Assembly: GCA_028287285.1 (NCBI GenBank)
Contig: JAQBPY010000073.1
Coordinates: 1-64,000, forward strand
Direction: 5' to 3'
Origin: Gemmatimonadota bacterium
GTDB lineage: Bacteria; Gemmatimonadota; Gemmatimonadetes; Gemmatimonadales; Gemmatimonadaceae
Length of the DNA: 64,000 nt
Below, in pieces: positions 2,162 to 51,002 of this stretch. Each line of letters starts with the position of its first letter. The stretch's first letter is position 1. The notes below the pieces were generated by a model. It had not been told where the DNA came from and ran no database searches. It was given only the letters and a program-made list of their open reading frames with translations. A program made the translations under genes and the position numbers.

Positions 2162-5100
2162 ATGCATCCAGGTATCCGCAGTTCACTCGCAACGCTGCTC
2201 ATCGGCACCGCAACAATTGTCCACGCGCAGGCGCCCGACATCTCGGCGGCCATGCACTGGCGCCAAATCGGCCCCACGCGCGCGGGGCGTGCACGTGCCG
2301 TTGCCGGCGTGCCGAGCCAGCCGAACGTCTTTTACATAGGATTCGACAACGGCGGCGTGTGGCGCTCCACTGACTACGGGTCAAACTGGGAGCCGCTCTT
2401 CGACAAGCAGCCCACGGGCTCCATCGGCGCCATTGCTGTTGCGCCCTCTGATCCCAACATCATCTACGTGGGCACCGGTGCGGGCATCATTCGTCCCGAT
2501 CTCGCGGTTGGCGACGGCGTGTACAAGTCCACCGACGCAGGCAAGACCTGGACGCATCTGGGTCTGCGCGAAACGCAGATGATCGCGAACATCGACGTGG
2601 ACCCCAAGGATCCCAACACGCTGTTCGTCGCCGCCCTTGGCCATCCGTACGGCCCGAACGCGGAGCGCGGTATCTTCCGTTCCACCGACGGCGGCAAATC
2701 GTTCCAGAAGGTGCTCTACAAGGACGAGTACACGAGCGGTGACGACGTCCGCATCGACCCCGCCAACCCCAACATCGTGTATGCCGGCCTGTGGATCCAG
2801 CAGCAGAGCTACATCGAAGGCGGTGGCTTTGGCGGCGCCGGCGGCGGCATCTACAAGTCGTCGGATGGCGGCACGACCTGGAAGCCGCTGACGGATGGCT
2901 TGCCCCCCATCATCCAGGCAAACCTGGCCATTGCGCCGAGCAACTCGCGGGTGGTGTATGCGATGGTGGCCGGCAATACGCCGGGCGGCGGCGGTCGAGG
3001 CGGTGCCACGGGCAGTGTGGGCTTCTACAAGTCCACCGACAACGGCGAGCATTGGCACCTCGCGATCAACGACACCCCAGCGGGCCAGGGCAAGACGCCT
3101 GACGCGCGGCCGCTCGTGCGCATTGGCGGCGGTGACCTGCCTACGATCACCGTTGATCCGAAGAACGAGAACGTGGTCTACAGCTCGTCCACCGTGTTCT
3201 GGCGGACGGAGGACGGCGGCATTACATGGTCAGCCGTGCGCGGCGCGCCTGGCGGCGACGACTACCAGAAGACGTGGATCAACCCGAACAACACCGACAT
3301 CCTCGCGGTCGTCGCGGATCAGGGTGGCGTGATCTCCGGCAACCGCGGCAAGTCGTGGAGCAACTGGTACACGCAGCCCACGGCCGCGATGTACCACGTG
3401 TCCACGGACATGGCGTTTCCGTACCGGGTGTGCGGTGGGCAGCAGGACTCCGGCTCCGCATGTGTGGACAGCCGTTCCAACGACGGCGAGATCACCTTCC
3501 ATGACTGGCATCCCGTCAACATCCAGGAATACGGCGTGGCCGCGTCAGATCCGAAGGACCCGGACATGGTGTTTGGCAGTGCCAGAACTAACGTGTCACT
3601 TTACAACAGGCGAAACGGTCAGACGTCGCAAGTGGGGCCGAGTGCCGATCAGAGAGGAGCGGACTTTGGCCGGAACGTTCGTACGATGCCTATCGTCTGG
3701 GCGCCGACGGACCATAAGACATTGTATTACGCGTCCAACGTGGTGTGGAAGTCAACGGACCAAGCGCACAGCTGGACGCGCATCAGCCCCGACCTCGCGC
3801 GCGCCACGTGGGACGTGCCCGCGAACATGGGCAAGTACACGAGCCAAGTGACGCCGGGCCCGCAGGGCTCGATCACCGCGCTGGCGCCGTCGCCGAAAAA
3901 TGGCAAGGTGATGTGGGCCGGCACCGACGACGGCTATATCCAGGTCACCACAGACGGCGGCGCGAAATGGACCAACGTCACGCCCTCGATGGTCAAGCCA
4001 TGGGCGCGCTTCTTCAATATCGACGCCGGCCACTTCGATGCGCAGACGGCGTACGCCGCGGTGAATACCATGCGGCTCGACGACATGAATCCCCACTTCC
4101 TCCGCACGCACGACGGCGGCAGGAACTGGACGGAGATCAACGTGGGCATCGCGCCGGGCAACGTCGCGAATTCCATTCGTGAGGATCCGCGCCGGAAGGG
4201 CTTGCTGTATGCCGCGACGGACGCGCAGGTGTGGGTGTCCTTCGACGACGGCGACCACTGGCAGTCGCTGCGTCTCGACATGCCGGCGATCTCGGTGCGT
4301 GATCTTCAGGTGAAGGACGACAGCAGCTGTTTCTGCTCCGACCTCATTGCCGGCACGCACGGTCGTGGCTTCTATATTCTCGACGACCTGTCACCGCTGC
4401 GCCAGCTGGCCGGCGTGCAGGGTGCGAAGAATGCCTACCTCTTCAAGCCGTCAACGGCGGTGCGTGTTCGTTTTGCGACCAATGATCCGACCCCCTGGCC
4501 ACCGGAAGTTCCGGCTGGAGAGAATCCGTTGCCGGGCGGCATCATCGACTACTATCTCGCGGCGAATGCGTCGGCGCCGGTGAAGCTCGAGATCCTGGAC
4601 AATGCCGGCACGCTCGTTCGCTCGTATTCGAGCAGCGATCTCACCGTACGTGGCACCGATCCGGCCATGGAGCCGGAGAAGTACAACACGATGTGCCAGC
4701 TCGACCCGAACCTGCCTGATTGCGGACTGCCGCTCTACTGGCCTGCGCCGGCGATTGGTCTGTCCACGCAGGCAGGTGTGCACCGCTTCAACTGGGATCT
4801 GCGGTATGATCCCATTGGCGAAGGTGGTGGGGGCCGTGGGGGCGGTGGTGGCTCGGGCGGCGCCGTTCCGCATCGCACTTACGCGGCGGTGAACGCGCCG
4901 TGGGCGCCGCCTGGCAGCTACACCGTGAAGCTCACCGTCGACGGCAAGACGTACACGCAGCCGCTCACACTTCGGCTCGACCCGCGTGTGAAGACGCCGG
5001 CCACTGCGCTGGCGAAGCTCGCATCGCTCACCAAGGAGCTTTACGCGGGTGCGGGCGTTGCGCATTCCGCGTATCTCCAGGCGCGGGCGTTGAGTGCGCA

Positions 5101-5443
5101 GCTTAGCGGTGCGGATGCGGCTGCGTTGAAGCTGCAGGTTGATTCGATTGCTCCGCCCGCCGTAGCCGGTGGTCGTGGAGGGCGGGGCGGCGGCGGTGGG
5201 CGTGCTGGAGGCGCTGGTCCGGCTGCGCCGCCGTCGCTCGAGTCAGCCAGCACGTCGCTCGTTGCCGCCGCGATGGGGATGCAGAGCGCGGATGTCGCGC
5301 CTACAGCCGCGCAACTCGCCGCGGCGGAGAAGGCGCGTGCGCAGCTTGCAGATGTGATGAAGCGGTGGAATGCGCTCAGGGGAAGCGAGCTCGCAAAGCT
5401 GAATGCCAGGCGGAAGGCGGCTGGTCAGCCGCCCATTGGGTAA
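2162..5443 (+). CDS. Secreted VPS10/sortilin-like BNR-repeat beta-propeller protein (paralog 1)
   Basis: In-frame ATG at 2162 followed by a signal peptide (MHPGIRSSLATLLIGTATIVHAQ). Repeated GGVWRSTDYGxNWEPL / YKSTDAGKTWTHLG blades; C-terminal Gly-rich linkers. Confidence 0.88.
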   Translation: MHPGIRSSLATLLIGTATIVHAQAPDISAAMHWRQIGPTRAGRARAVAGVPSQPNVFYIGFDNGGVWRSTDYGSNWEPLFDKQPTGSIGAIAVAPSDPNIIYVGTGAGIIRPDLAVGDGVYKSTDAGKTWTHLGLRETQMIANIDVDPKDPNTLFVAALGHPYGPNAERGIFRSTDGGKSFQKVLYKDEYTSGDDVRIDPANPNIVYAGLWIQQQSYIEGGGFGGAGGGIYKSSDGGTTWKPLTDGLPPIIQANLAIAPSNSRVVYAMVAGNTPGGGGRGGATGSVGFYKSTDNGEHWHLAINDTPAGQGKTPDARPLVRIGGGDLPTITVDPKNENVVYSSSTVFWRTEDGGITWSAVRGAPGGDDYQKTWINPNNTDILAVVADQGGVISGNRGKSWSNWYTQPTAAMYHVSTDMAFPYRVCGGQQDSGSACVDSRSNDGEITFHDWHPVNIQEYGVAASDPKDPDMVFGSARTNVSLYNRRNGQTSQVGPSADQRGADFGRNVRTMPIVWAPTDHKTLYYASNVVWKSTDQAHSWTRISPDLARATWDVPANMGKYTSQVTPGPQGSITALAPSPKNGKVMWAGTDDGYIQVTTDGGAKWTNVTPSMVKPWARFFNIDAGHFDAQTAYAAVNTMRLDDMNPHFLRTHDGGRNWTEINVGIAPGNVANSIREDPRRKGLLYAATDAQVWVSFDDGDHWQSLRLDMPAISVRDLQVKDDSSCFCSDLIAGTHGRGFYILDDLSPLRQLAGVQGAKNAYLFKPSTAVRVRFATNDPTPWPPEVPAGENPLPGGIIDYYLAANASAPVKLEILDNAGTLVRSYSSSDLTVRGTDPAMEPEKYNTMCQLDPNLPDCGLPLYWPAPAIGLSTQAGVHRFNWDLRYDPIGEGGGGRGGGGGSGGAVPHRTYAAVNAPWAPPGSYTVKLTVDGKTYTQPLTLRLDPRVKTPATALAKLASLTKELYAGAGVAHSAYLQARALSAQLSGADAAALKLQVDSIAPPAVAGGRGGRGGGGGRAGGAGPAAPPSLESASTSLVAAAMGMQSADVAPTAAQLAAAEKARAQLADVMKRWNALRGSELAKLNARRKAAGQPPIG

Positions 5444-5456
5444 ACTGCGAATAACT

Positions 5457-5553
5457 GTCATCCCGCACGCGTTGTGATTGTGGCCGCGTAGGCGCAAGGA
5501 TTGGGATGGGATTTCCCGACACTCGCTCGCGGCGCTCGCTCATGCGGGATGAC
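5457..5553. repeat. Family-A dispersed repeat copies between convergent genes
   Basis: GTCATCCCGCACGCG at 5457 and an inverted CCCGACACTCGCTCGCGGCGCTCGCTCATGCGGGATGACAT near 5517-5553. Confidence 0.7.
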
Positions 5554-5583
5554 ATATAGACGTATATGGGATGACAGGGATGC

Positions 5584-6900
5584 CTACATCGTCATCCCCG
5601 CCATGCCACCCGCTGAATGCACCGGCCGCACACGCAGAAAGAACATCGCGCCCACCGGTGTCCTGCTCCCATAAGTATCACGTAACGCCAAAGGCACCAC
5701 ATTGAGCGTCGCACTCGCACCAAGGCCAATGGTGCCACGACCATATTGAAGCACCTCACGAACGTAGCCAAGAGAAAACGCACGTACGGTGAATCGCTCG
5801 GCCGATGAAAAATGCGACACGTCGAGATCGCCCGCACTTTTCTCCACCTGTTCCGCGCGCCCGAACACGGTGGTGCGGCCGTCCACGATGGCTTCTGCCT
5901 CGACAAGCATCGAAGGAGACAATGCACTGCCGGCTTCGTGATGTTTGTTGGCACCATAGATGGCCGCAACCGACAGTTGGCCTTCGCTGCCGAGCCTGGC
6001 GCCATACAGCACTGACGCCGTCACGCGATGCATAGACGCGGCGGGGTCAAGCGCTTCAGGACTGTTGATGTAACCGTACCCCGCATTGATGCTCCAGGAC
6101 GGCGTTGCATTGTACGTCAGCCGGCCCGAGTACGAATCGAGCACCACGCGATCGACGTTGAACCGGAACTGATCGGGCTCTCGGCCATTGAACACTGATG
6201 CTTCCAGCTTGAGGGTGTGCGTAAAGAGACCGGCACTCAGCACGCCAAAGGAGATGTGCGTGGCATCCTGCCAGTGATGCGAGATGGGCACCGTGGGGTT
6301 GTCTGCCGCCGACGGACGATGCATGAACGCCACGGGGCCGAGTGCGGGCTCGCCGGATGGTGCGGCATACAGCATGAGGCCCACTGATGTCGTGACGGGC
6401 TTCTCGTAGAGCGCGCTCAGCTCCATGAACAGGTCGTGCGGATGCTGGCGGTCGTGCAGCGGCTGTCCGTTGTACGCTTCACCCGATTGCAGCAGCAGCG
6501 GATAGCCCCGCGGCGTGACGCCAATGGCGTCGAGGCTCAGCATGGTGCGCAGCTGGAAGCGTCCGTCGGCAAGGGAGTGTGCAGCCATCAGCATCATCCA
6601 GTTCAACGATCCGAACTGTGACTCGCCCCGTGTGCCGCCCTGTTTGTCGTACTGCGCGAAGAGATAACCGTGGCCCGTGATGTCCCAGTGTCCAGGTGCG
6701 GCAAAGTACAACGACGGAATGGGGGCCGCCTCGGGAATCCATGTCGTACCGGATCCCATGCGCTCCATGGAGATGCCGAGTGGATCGGCGGTCATCATCG
6801 TGGACATCGACATCTGTTGTGCCGCGACGTGGCGCATTGGCACCGCCGCGAGAACGCACCACGTGAGCACGTGGCGCGCGAGCTTCATTGTGATCTTCAT
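5584..6900 (-). CDS. Predicted outer-membrane beta-barrel protein, Met/His-rich N-terminus; possibly copper-related
   Basis: 438-aa ORF, signal peptide, MSMSTMMTADPLGISMERMGSG near the N-terminus, alternating barrel-like strands, C-terminal GGMAGMTM. Confidence 0.7.
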   Translation of the reverse strand: MKITMKLARHVLTWCVLAAVPMRHVAAQQMSMSTMMTADPLGISMERMGSGTTWIPEAAPIPSLYFAAPGHWDITGHGYLFAQYDKQGGTRGESQFGSLNWMMLMAAHSLADGRFQLRTMLSLDAIGVTPRGYPLLLQSGEAYNGQPLHDRQHPHDLFMELSALYEKPVTTSVGLMLYAAPSGEPALGPVAFMHRPSAADNPTVPISHHWQDATHISFGVLSAGLFTHTLKLEASVFNGREPDQFRFNVDRVVLDSYSGRLTYNATPSWSINAGYGYINSPEALDPAASMHRVTASVLYGARLGSEGQLSVAAIYGANKHHEAGSALSPSMLVEAEAIVDGRTTVFGRAEQVEKSAGDLDVSHFSSAERFTVRAFSLGYVREVLQYGRGTIGLGASATLNVVPLALRDTYGSRTPVGAMFFLRVRPVHSAGGMAGMTM

Positions 6901-16865: not shown

Positions 16866-16887
16866 GCTGATCCGTAGCGAGTGCGGT

Positions 16888-17134
16888 ATATCTCCCGACA
16901 GGCGTTCGCTGCGCTCACGCCTGCGGGATGACATGTTAACGTCCGCCTCGCTCACGCCTGCGGGATGACACGTTACCGTCCGATTCGCCAACGCCTGCGG
17001 GATGACACTTTTCAGCCCTGTCATCCCGCAGGAGCGAAGCGAATGTCGGGAGATACTGTACGGTTCTTGCGGCTAATCAAGCGCAACGAACGGTTGAGTA
17101 TGTCCCGACGGGCTCACGCCTGCGGGATGACAGC
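16888..17134. repeat. Cluster of family-A dispersed repeats between convergent genes, including a 37-nt tandem
   Basis: Multiple (rc) TGTCATCCCGCAGG..AGCGAATGTCGGGA copies; CTCACGCCTGCGGGATGACA(T/C)GTTA(A/C)CGTCCG... units start at 16914 and 16951, with a degenerate third at 16988. Confidence 0.8.
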
Positions 17135-17158
17135 GCACTGCGGATAACACCCACAGCA

Positions 17159-38205: not shown

Positions 38206-38210
38206 CCAGC

Positions 38211-38292
38211 ACCGATTTGTATCCCGTTCGAAGCACCGATTTGTATCCCGCTCGAAGCACCGATTTGTATCCGGCTCAAAGCACCGATTTGT
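38211..38292 (+). repeat. 24-bp tandem repeat (about 3.4 units)
   Basis: ACCGATTTGTATCCCGTTCGAAGC / ACCGATTTGTATCCCGCTCGAAGC / ACCGATTTGTATCCGGCTCAAAGC / ACCGATTTGT. Confidence 0.95.
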
Positions 38293-38328
38293 CATCCCGC
38301 ACGAGCGACAGCGAGTGTCGGGATATTC
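38291..38328 (+). repeat. Family-A dispersed repeat
   Basis: GTCATCCCGCACGAGCGACAGCGAGTGTCGGGATATTC, directly abutting the 24-bp array. Confidence 0.8.
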
Positions 38329-38361
38329 CCTCCCTTCCCGGGAAATGGTCAAGGAAACAGA

Positions 38362-43858: not shown

Positions 43859-43925
43859 GTATTCCTCTGTCATCGTGCGGGTGTCTCGTGCTTTCGGGAG
43901 ATGCGGACTCCTGTGCAGGGATGAA

Positions 43926-44162
43926 ATCTCCCGGCACTCGCTCCGCTCGTGCGGGATGACAATGTGTTGTCATCCCTTTTACTTGCGCCTGAGCCACTCC
44001 TTGCTGTCATCCCTTGTCGGGATATGCTCTTACGGGATGACAACACATTTGCTGTCATCCCGCAGGCGCAACGCGCCTGTCGGGATATACTGTACCTGCG
44101 CTTTGAGCCAACCACGCACGCAACGTATATCTCAAACACTCGCTGCTCGTGCAGGATGATAC
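43926..44162. repeat. Cluster of family-A dispersed repeats
   Basis: Five or more copies or fragments in both orientations. Best copy 44057-44086: ATCCCG-C-AGGCGC-AAC-GCGCCT-GT-CGGGAT. Confidence 0.85.
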
Positions 44163-44182
44163 ACTGATGATGCACTAAGGAA

Positions 44183-48804: not shown

Positions 48805-50853
48805 TCACGGCAAGGCAAACGCCACCACGGACCCACCAGAGGGTGCATCGTTCTTTCCGCCGCCACAGACGATGACCACATATTCGCGTCCGTTCACCAT
48901 GTAGAGCGATGGCGTCGCATTTCCGGATGCCGGCAGCGCCGCCTCCCATAGCAGCGTGCCCGTCAGCTTGTCGAAGGCGCGTATCTTCTTGTCATACGTC
49001 GTTGCGGCGATGAAGAGCAGTCCGTTGGCTGTCACCACCGGGCCGCCGTAGCTGTCCGTCCCGGTGTTTTTCAGCCCTTTCGCGGCAAGAGTGGGATATT
49101 CGCCAAAGGGAATGCGCCACCGGATGGTGCCCGTGTTGAGATCGACAGCGTTCAGCGTGCCCCATGGCGGCTTGATTGCCGGATATCCATCGGGGTCGAG
49201 GAAGATGGAAATTCCGTCGTTGCGGTATTTCAGGTAGTTGGGATTCGTCCCCGCCGTTTCCGCAACGTCATGACCGGTCATGAGAAAGTTCACCAGGTCC
49301 GTTGTCGCCCCGTTGTCGAGCGAGCCCGCAAAACCCGGCATGCGTCCGCGGCCGAGTCGAATGATCGACGTCAGCTCCTCGCGTGTAAGCCGCTTGCCGA
49401 TGTCGACGAGGCCTGGAATGGAGCCCGGTGTTCCCGTACGGTCCGTCTTGTGGCAGCTCGCACAGTTGCTCTCGTAAAGCGACTTGTCACTCCGCGGCAC
49501 CATGCGAATGAGCCACGGCATCTCGTTCACGTTCACATACAGCAGTGACGATTCGGGATCGTACGCAACGCCGCCCCACTCCGCCCCGCCGTCAACACCC
49601 GGGTAGATGATCGTGCCGCCCTTCGCGGGCGGTGCAAACAATCCGCGTGACGTGTATTGCCTGAAGATCTTGAGCGCACCCGCATGAGCCGCCGGCGTGC
49701 GTGTCGTCAGTATGTCTTCGGTGAGCGTCTGGCGAACGAGCGCCGGTGGCTTCAGCGGAAGATGCTGCGTCGGGCTCGCCTGCTCCCCATCGAGCTCCGA
49801 CGCCGGTACCTTTCGCTCGGCGACAGGAAACAGTGGTGTGCCCGTGCGGCGGTCGAGCAGCCAGATGTGCCCTGTCTTTGTCACCTGTGCGAGGGCGTCC
49901 ACGGGCTTTCCACCGTGACGCACCGTGACGAGCGCCGGTGGCGCAGGAAAGTCGAGATCCCACAGGTCGTGCTTGATGCCCTGGAAATGCCAGACACGCT
50001 TTCCGGTGCGTGCGTCGAGCGCGAGGATCGTGTTCGCAAAGAGATTATCGCCAATGCGGTTTACACCATAGAAATCGTACGACGCCGAGCCTGTCGCACC
50101 GAAAACCATGCCGAGCGTGTGATCGACCGTAAGGCCCGCCCACACGTTGGTGCCGCCATTGATCCTGTACGACTCCGGCGACCACGTCTCATAGCCAAAT
50201 TCCCCGGGGTGGGGAATGGTGTGAAAGGTCCAGCGCAGCTCGCCGGTCGTCAGGTCATACGCGCGAATGTCACCCGGCGACGACGGCAGACTCTCGGCGA
50301 CGGTGCTGCCGATGATGAACAGGTCCTCGAACACCACGCCAGGCGTGCTCGCGCTGATCGACACCCCCTCGATTGGCCGCTCGAGTCCTTTTCTGAGGTC
50401 GACGCGACCTGAATCGCCGAATGCCTGGATGGGCTGGCCCGTACGGCGATCGAGGCACCACAGCCAGTTGCGGTGCGTGAAGAACAGGCGGTCGCCACTC
50501 ACCGTCACGCCACGGTGGCGAAAGCGCTGGGTCGATGGCTTTCCGAATGTCGGGTCGAAGCTCCACCGCTCCTTGCCCGTTGCGGCGTCCAGCGCCACCA
50601 CCCGCAACCTCGGCGACGTGAGATACATCGTTCCGTCGATCACGATGGGATTGGACTGCATCTCCGAGCCCTTGAACTCGTCGTGTGTCTCGTACGACCA
50701 CGCGAGTTTCAGCTGCTTGACGTTCCTGGGCGATATCTGCGCGAGCGTGGAGTAGCGAGTGTTGTCGGTGGTGCCACCGTACAGCGGCCAGTCGGCCGAG
50801 CCCTGTGCGCCGAGCAGCGCGGGCACGAGGAGCAGGAGCGGAGAGATTTTCAT
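48805..50853 (-). CDS. PQQ-dependent membrane/periplasmic dehydrogenase with embedded cytochrome c domain
   Basis: DWPLYGGTTDNTRYSTLAQISPRNVKQLKLAWSYET; CxxCH in YESNCASCHKTDRTG; LLWEAALPASGNATPSLYMVNGREYVVIVCGGGK. Start re-sited to MKISPLLLLVPALLGAQ. Confidence 0.9.
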   Translation of the reverse strand: MKISPLLLLVPALLGAQGSADWPLYGGTTDNTRYSTLAQISPRNVKQLKLAWSYETHDEFKGSEMQSNPIVIDGTMYLTSPRLRVVALDAATGKERWSFDPTFGKPSTQRFRHRGVTVSGDRLFFTHRNWLWCLDRRTGQPIQAFGDSGRVDLRKGLERPIEGVSISASTPGVVFEDLFIIGSTVAESLPSSPGDIRAYDLTTGELRWTFHTIPHPGEFGYETWSPESYRINGGTNVWAGLTVDHTLGMVFGATGSASYDFYGVNRIGDNLFANTILALDARTGKRVWHFQGIKHDLWDLDFPAPPALVTVRHGGKPVDALAQVTKTGHIWLLDRRTGTPLFPVAERKVPASELDGEQASPTQHLPLKPPALVRQTLTEDILTTRTPAAHAGALKIFRQYTSRGLFAPPAKGGTIIYPGVDGGAEWGGVAYDPESSLLYVNVNEMPWLIRMVPRSDKSLYESNCASCHKTDRTGTPGSIPGLVDIGKRLTREELTSIIRLGRGRMPGFAGSLDNGATTDLVNFLMTGHDVAETAGTNPNYLKYRNDGISIFLDPDGYPAIKPPWGTLNAVDLNTGTIRWRIPFGEYPTLAAKGLKNTGTDSYGGPVVTANGLLFIAATTYDKKIRAFDKLTGTLLWEAALPASGNATPSLYMVNGREYVVIVCGGGKNDAPSGGSVVAFALP

Positions 50854-50866
50854 GTGGACAATGTTG

Positions 50867-50903
50867 GTCATCCCGCAGGAGCGAAGCGAGTGTCGGGAGA
50901 TAT
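50867..50903 (+). repeat. Family-A dispersed repeat in 5' leader of PQQ-dehydrogenase gene
   Basis: GTCATCCCGCAGGAGCGAAGCGAGTGTCGGGAGATAT, 13 nt from the ATG (minus strand). Confidence 0.8.
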
Positions 50904-51002
50904 CCGAACACCCCGGTAGCCCAACTGGCCCAAAGAACGGATGTCCCGACAGCCGGACGGCTACCAGAACGACAACGGCAACGCGCCCCGTTGACACCGT
51001 AT

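Follow-up and report, generated by a model that had tools for sequence, protein, structure and literature searches.

Why does one palindromic sequence recur between genes along this DNA, and what would carry it from gap to gap? The window (the whole 64,000-nucleotide stretch that was analysed) comes from a Gemmatimonadota MAG (label G000; 6.1 Mb in 441 contigs, 84% complete, 3.8% contamination), and a sequence-only reading had named five places in it where a palindromic repeat occurs. We propose that the repeat consists of non-autonomous miniature elements of the REPIN type, with dimers mobilised in trans, arrays grown by slippage and a young subset carried within CTAG-bounded elements, a reading to which we give a probability of about 0.72.

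A covariance model made from 69 distinct genome copies of the hairpin detects eight hairpins in the window, all of them complete (E about 3e-16 to 3e-7), and these, together with the sequences as read, place the repeat at all five named places. The features of the window are the following.

5456..5554, no single strand: head-to-head dimer of 99 bp with a decayed left arm, its tag at 5456-5464 (+); in a convergent gap between genes 2162-5443 (+) and 5584-6900 (-)
5504..5554, minus strand: complete right hairpin of the 99-bp dimer, covariance match 6e-12
5555..5576, minus strand: truncated end module next to the 5504-5554 hairpin, on its tag side; a 22-bp unit with an exact tag at 5568-5576
16883..16933, minus strand: complete hairpin with a 25-nt inner part, covariance match 8e-10
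16934..17007, minus strand: two truncated 37-bp modules next to the 16883-16933 hairpin, on its tag side; their tags lie at 16962-16970 and 16999-17007
17019..17132, no single strand: 114-bp head-to-head dimer made up of 17019-17061 (+) and 17093-17132 (-), both covariance matches; in the convergent gap 16866-17158
38208..38304, plus strand: four 24-bp tandem units, AGCACCGATTTGTATCCCGCTCGA; they run into the tag of the 38290 hairpin
38290..38333, plus strand: single complete hairpin in a divergent gap, covariance match 1e-13
43919..43961, minus strand: complete hairpin, covariance match 1.5e-13
43968..44042, no single strand: truncated or decayed modules, tags at 43968 (+), 44005 (+) and 44034-44042 (-)
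44053..44095, plus strand: complete, near-perfectly paired hairpin, covariance match 2.5e-15
50866..50908, plus strand: single hairpin with the tag GGTC, covariance match 1.4e-10

The named stretches do hold the repeat, although several of them also contain truncated modules, and the hairpins are real, although the usual unit is not one palindrome but two hairpins joined head to head as a dimer. The near-perfect fold claimed for the copy at 44057-44086 pairs as described, with one bulged T in addition (ATCCCG CAGGCGC AAC GCGCCTG [T] CGGGAT for 44053-44095), and as single-stranded DNA this hairpin folds at -15.5 kcal/mol against -5.1 for shuffles (z -6.4). A decayed right arm at about 44125-44163, judged by eye, probably completes a dimer with it, and among the modules at 43968-44042 there is a weak covariance match at 44005-44032 (E 0.003). 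The 17019-17132 dimer is predicted by folding to form a single long hairpin (-40.2 kcal/mol, z -8.2), and the units at 38208-38304 are decayed truncated modules together with upstream flank. The hairpin at 50866-50908 lies in a divergent gap before gene 48805-50871 (-) and overlaps its predicted start by a few bases. An Rfam search of the window gave zero matches.

The complete hairpin has the consensus 5' TGTC A TCCCG CAsNNGC-GNA-GCNNsTG [T] CGGGA 3' and comprises a TGTC tag, five outer pairs, seven inner ones and a loop of 3 nt, with a T bulging out of the 3' arm in 195 of 203 hairpins. Within the hairpin set the T-A is always paired, and the outermost A stands opposite a T in only 34 of the 203 copies. 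Compensatory change keeps the twelve-pair stem palindrome, as in a REPIN. Stem covariation is 0.134 against 0.050 when shuffled, and there are 45 double-change cells over the whole stem with 19 expected, neither value being equalled in any of 500 shuffles; all of the slid structures give covariation far below that of the true register. The five outer pairs are invariant because the search pattern demanded them (or nearly so), and the covariation test rests on the inner pairs. At inner pair 3 (G-C, C-G, T-A, T-G) 82% of the distinct inner sequences are paired compared with 44% after shuffling, and at inner pairs 4 and 5 Watson-Crick pairing (G-C, C-G) is about as frequent as G.A / A.G. Of 185 odd-length cases, 139 have the central GNA loop on the tag strand and 4 have it on the opposite one, a polarity that singles out the tag strand. 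Mini-hairpins of the d(GCGNAGC) type are extraordinarily stable in DNA (PMC4686876), and it may be that the tag strand acts as single-stranded DNA.

Two hairpins placed head to head, tags outward, make up the basic unit, a dimer of approximately 117 bp: 55 tag-outward pairs are spaced 76-129 bp, with a mode of 117, and such an inverted pair of tagged hairpins is the arrangement of a REPIN or REP doublet. A linker of about 45 bp with partly complementary ends separates the two hairpins. The linkers of plain dimers are 66% identical to their best match on another stretch, compared with 49% when shuffled and 53% for the 40-bp flanks; the linkers are homologous but the flanks are not, and therefore the dimer is the dispersed unit. 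Single hairpins also occur alone.

The core 10-mer, TGTCATCCCG, has 583 occurrences in the 6.1 Mb, evenly on both strands, and its reversed control has 0; in the window alone, with one mismatch allowed, the count of 25 is mildly above the 17 expected by chance, and the matter is settled by the genome-wide count. Placement was scored in 1.63 Mb of the MAG (83% coding) using our own gene calls, in a sample biased to repeat-bearing contigs, which affects densities more than placement ratios. Here 299 of 305 repeat ends (98%) are intergenic, and the repeat occupies 31 of 73 convergent gaps (42%), 52 of 399 tandem gaps and 9 of 160 divergent gaps (6%), with p 4e-11 for convergent against divergent. 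Over the first 1.15 Mb, the repeat lies at a median of 65 bp from gene 3' ends and 146 bp from 5' ends. High copy number at extragenic sites is a further property of REPINs seen here. The sequence-only reading had held that the repeat is absent from the coding regions it covered, which the intergenic ends bear out, and had suggested selection for a hairpin or a REP/MITE-like spread, which gains support from the hundreds of intergenic copies, the compensatory changes and the dimers with unrelated flanks; none of the outcomes it had named as counting against this (few copies, no covariation, equal coding density) occurred. A plasmid search for the repeat gave zero matches, and two viral pattern matches, which lack a hairpin or dimer, look like chance.

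Besides dimers there are arrays, defined as same-orientation tags less than 45 bp apart. We found 52, in 48 of which the innermost module is complete, whereas the outer modules are truncated in 69 of 69 cases. The 6 bp before successive array tags agree at 3.8 positions on average against 1.8 in shuffles (shuffle maximum 2.4), and therefore the duplicated unit includes the upstream flank. The simplest reading would be that arrays grow by tandem duplication through slippage at the hairpin, and the growth of these truncated modules may reveal how such hairpins disturb replication. A clear bias of array orientation with GC skew or gene strand was not seen in the 1.63-Mb sample. Reading the 30-bp arrays as CRISPR was ruled out, the units being hairpin fragments plus flank.

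Copy number differs widely within the genus. By covariance search there are at least 150 complete hairpins in this genome (where 150 candidates were scored), 109 in G001, 40 in G005, 13 in G002, 2 each in G006 and G007, and 0 in four other congeners. The full pattern is present in 3 of 298 genomes of the phylum (this one, G001 and, as one copy, G269), and the family is also found in the Gemmatimonadaceae MAGs RYN_360, RYN_356 and Bin8.6. No empty site in the genus was comparable because the relatives' matches, about 65-81% identical, are too divergent and are scattered over different contigs. The pattern also turns up in unrelated phyla (Devosia, Leifsonia, Nocardia and others), apparently by chance except perhaps on one Planctomycetota MAG contig (L199:3594-3626), where a convincing hairpin copy is followed by CCGATTATA as in RYN_356, reflecting either horizontal transfer or misbinning. 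In RYN_360 (L191, L203, L214, L228) dimers are framed by inverted GCGTCCCGGGCGGC...GCCGCCCGGGACGC and sometimes adjoin heptamer repeats (GAGTAAC and similar).

A sister type, TGTCATCCCGAGCGAAGCGAGGGATCT, occurs in G007 and G022. These TGTC-ATCCC-GAGCGAAGCGA-GGGATCT repeats have the tag, the ATCCC stem start and the GCGAAGC core in common with the present family, but their stem is shorter and their 3' arm is another one, and G022 has 0 matches to this family's pattern. In G022 (99% complete, 203 copies of the sister-type 10-mer) the TGTC tags are nearly one-stranded over long stretches (all but one of those listed on C15, 4 of 4 on C8), possibly as a replication-strand bias. Another REP type, GTCGTCCTGAGCGAAGCGAAGGACCTG, has the tag GTCG and the same GCGAAGC core (L099, L098, L103 and other loci); GTCGTCCTGAGCG, with 28 copies in the 1.63-Mb sample, goes with it, and this REP type sometimes lies within a longer palindrome, TGGACTGTTTCTGAATTACAG....

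The enzyme suggested by the sequence-only reading was a RAYT, and here the search was negative: a RAYT/Y1 transposase (PF01797) was not found in this MAG, in the hairpin-rich G001 (92% complete) and G005 (91%), or in G022 with its sister type. Y1 transposases are present in 21 of 60 relatives' genomes, including two genes in G007, and 0 of the 30 RAYT loci examined there has a full TGTCATCCCG repeat pair alongside. With no RAYT here and none repeat-flanked in relatives, the family is REP-like but an orphan, a better match for the CGTC-tagged REPs than for the GTAG REPs that go with RAYTs. The alternative that survives best is that these are nevertheless RAYT-mobilised REPINs, the RAYT having been lost recently or lying in the unassembled 15% of the genome. 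REPs with bulged stems do occur with RAYT subclass 2.2 (PMC6006769), and the relatives' Y1 transposases lend this some weight, but the relatives' RAYT loci are not flanked by the repeat, G001 and G005 carry their 109 and 40 hairpins without one, and the tag is TGTC, not GTAG/GTGG, so that we consider it unlikely.

Another possibility is an ordinary MITE of a DDE insertion sequence, of which TGTCATCCCG would be the terminal inverted repeat. The inverted termini would be explained in this way, as would a subset of dimers that lies inside CTAG-bounded palindromes, IS630 of this genome being also at CTAG. Directly outside these dimers is CAATGCTGTTCAGTTAGC, with 38 matching ends in the sample, and CTAG is situated within 9 bp of 26 of the 38, where 0.0015 is expected per end. 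The best identity among composite dimers is 93% against 80% for plain dimers, and they are a young subset, probably amplified inside the CTAG-bounded palindromes. A second, CTAG-bounded palindromic element, CTAG-TGGCAATGCTGTTCAGTTAGC ... GCTCAAAGTGAACAGTATTGCCA-CTAG, has REP dimers inside it (L081-L110; 39 matches genome-wide in G000). The genome has two IS630 transposases: an intact-looking IS630-family element at L252:1369-2530, with a 371 aa transposase (DDE_3), is inserted at CTAG, and a second, 5'-cut copy on L251 directly adjoins a composite repeat. IS630 prefers TA within CTAG (Tenzen and Ohtsubo 1991, as cited in PMC2170065). The CTAG borders, together with an IS630 that sits at CTAG, though with other ends, make it plausible that an IS630-type MITE carries the composite subset; the CTAG-bounded palindrome looks like such a MITE, its partner not found in a search for an autonomous DDE partner that covered IS630 (DDE_3) only and gave the two copies, whose ends differ from those of the repeat. 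IS630 itself was rejected as the source of the repeat, its terminal repeats being different. As an account of the family as a whole the DDE-type MITE is improbable: 76 dimers show no conspicuous target-site duplication between 2 and 10 bp long, single hairpins exist alone, the internal stems covary, which a plain terminal repeat does not need, and only 3 sampled genes are bracketed by repeats lying no more than 400 bp away on either side, none of them a recognisable transposase (the first has no Pfam match, the second has a BTAD domain and the third is a tricorn-like protease).

That these are regulatory or terminator hairpins, kept for a function at gene ends and not spreading, is more doubtful still, for while convergent and 3'-end placement, compensatory changes and a stable fold would suit it, the family is absent or nearly so in six of nine genus relatives, linkers are homologous at unrelated loci, no T-run after the hairpin is seen in the copies read, and truncated arrays carrying flank are hard to explain as regulators.

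If the repeats are non-autonomous REPIN-type elements, as we prefer, units would spread via a single-stranded intermediate with the help of a trans-acting enzyme, which would read, on the tag strand, the 5' TGTC and the GNA-capped hairpin with its bulge. No RAYT having been found here, it may have been lost, may be encoded on the missing part of the MAG, or may be of another kind. Copies would persist where they are least harmful, in convergent gaps and at gene 3' ends, where they may also have a role in mRNA ends as hairpins. The truncated modules on the tag side would arise later, by tandem duplication of the upstream flank and the 5' part of the hairpin, for which slippage of replication at the hairpin is the simplest route, and the young subset would have been amplified inside CTAG-bounded palindromic elements resembling IS630-type MITEs. 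More tentatively, TGTC/CGTC REPINs might be moved by a non-RAYT enzyme acting on the single-stranded tag strand, with TGTC, the bulged T and the GNA mini-hairpin as its recognition features; should this be true, the large copy-number differences between congeners would let the enzyme be found by comparison. A large Gemmatimonadota family that numbers at least 150 complete hairpins in one species, while searches of several congeners gave none, offers a comparative system for the mobiliser, and a strand-polar stable DNA loop with no RAYT found bears on a question left open in 2013 (PMC3733652).

How, then, does the family compare with known systems? It differs from a DDE-type MITE in the missing target-site duplication of its 76 dimers; with IS630/Tc1-type MITEs it shares the CTAG-bounded inverted repeats of the young subset (26/38 ends), but plain dimers have no duplication and CTAG borders occur only with the composite subset. 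It resembles REPINs, as defined in PMC3116915, and GTAG REPs (PMC3116915, PMC2817692) in its inverted doublet of tagged hairpins, its compensatory changes and its tandem clusters that include flanks, but the tag is TGTC rather than GTAG/GTGG, no RAYT was found in this genome, and a RAYT flanked by the repeat as its cognate REP was found neither here, in an incomplete MAG, nor in relatives. A term search of three REP papers found no mention of Gemmatimonadota, and Gemmatimonas is not named in the survey of CGTC/TGTC-tagged REPs (Di Nocera 2013, PMC3733652). That survey, whose tagged REPs include Neisseria dRS3 and Rickettsia RPE-4/RPE-6, describes families CGTC-1 to -4 with a complementary A and T at the first two positions of the stem, stems of 8-9 bp, loops of 4-5 nt, CCA-like tails, mainly head-to-head dimers, rare clusters and no linked known transposase, the mover being left open. 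The present repeat is like them in its unpaired 5' tag of the CGTC/TGTC/CCTC type (TGTC here), the AT that opens the 5' stem, its head-to-head dimers, its intergenic placement near gene 3' ends and the lack of a linked transposase gene, and in other species some dimers inside longer palindromes are also a shared trait. It is unlike them in its stem of 5 bp, bulged T and 7 bp, its 3-nt GNA loop and its other tails, and in clustering, which is rare there, whereas here truncated arrays (52) are frequent beside frequent dimers. The stem and loop sizes are not those of the four CGTC families, so we do not file the repeat among them; it works like a REPIN/BIME of the TGTC/CGTC-tagged sort, set apart by its stem, its loop and its clustering.
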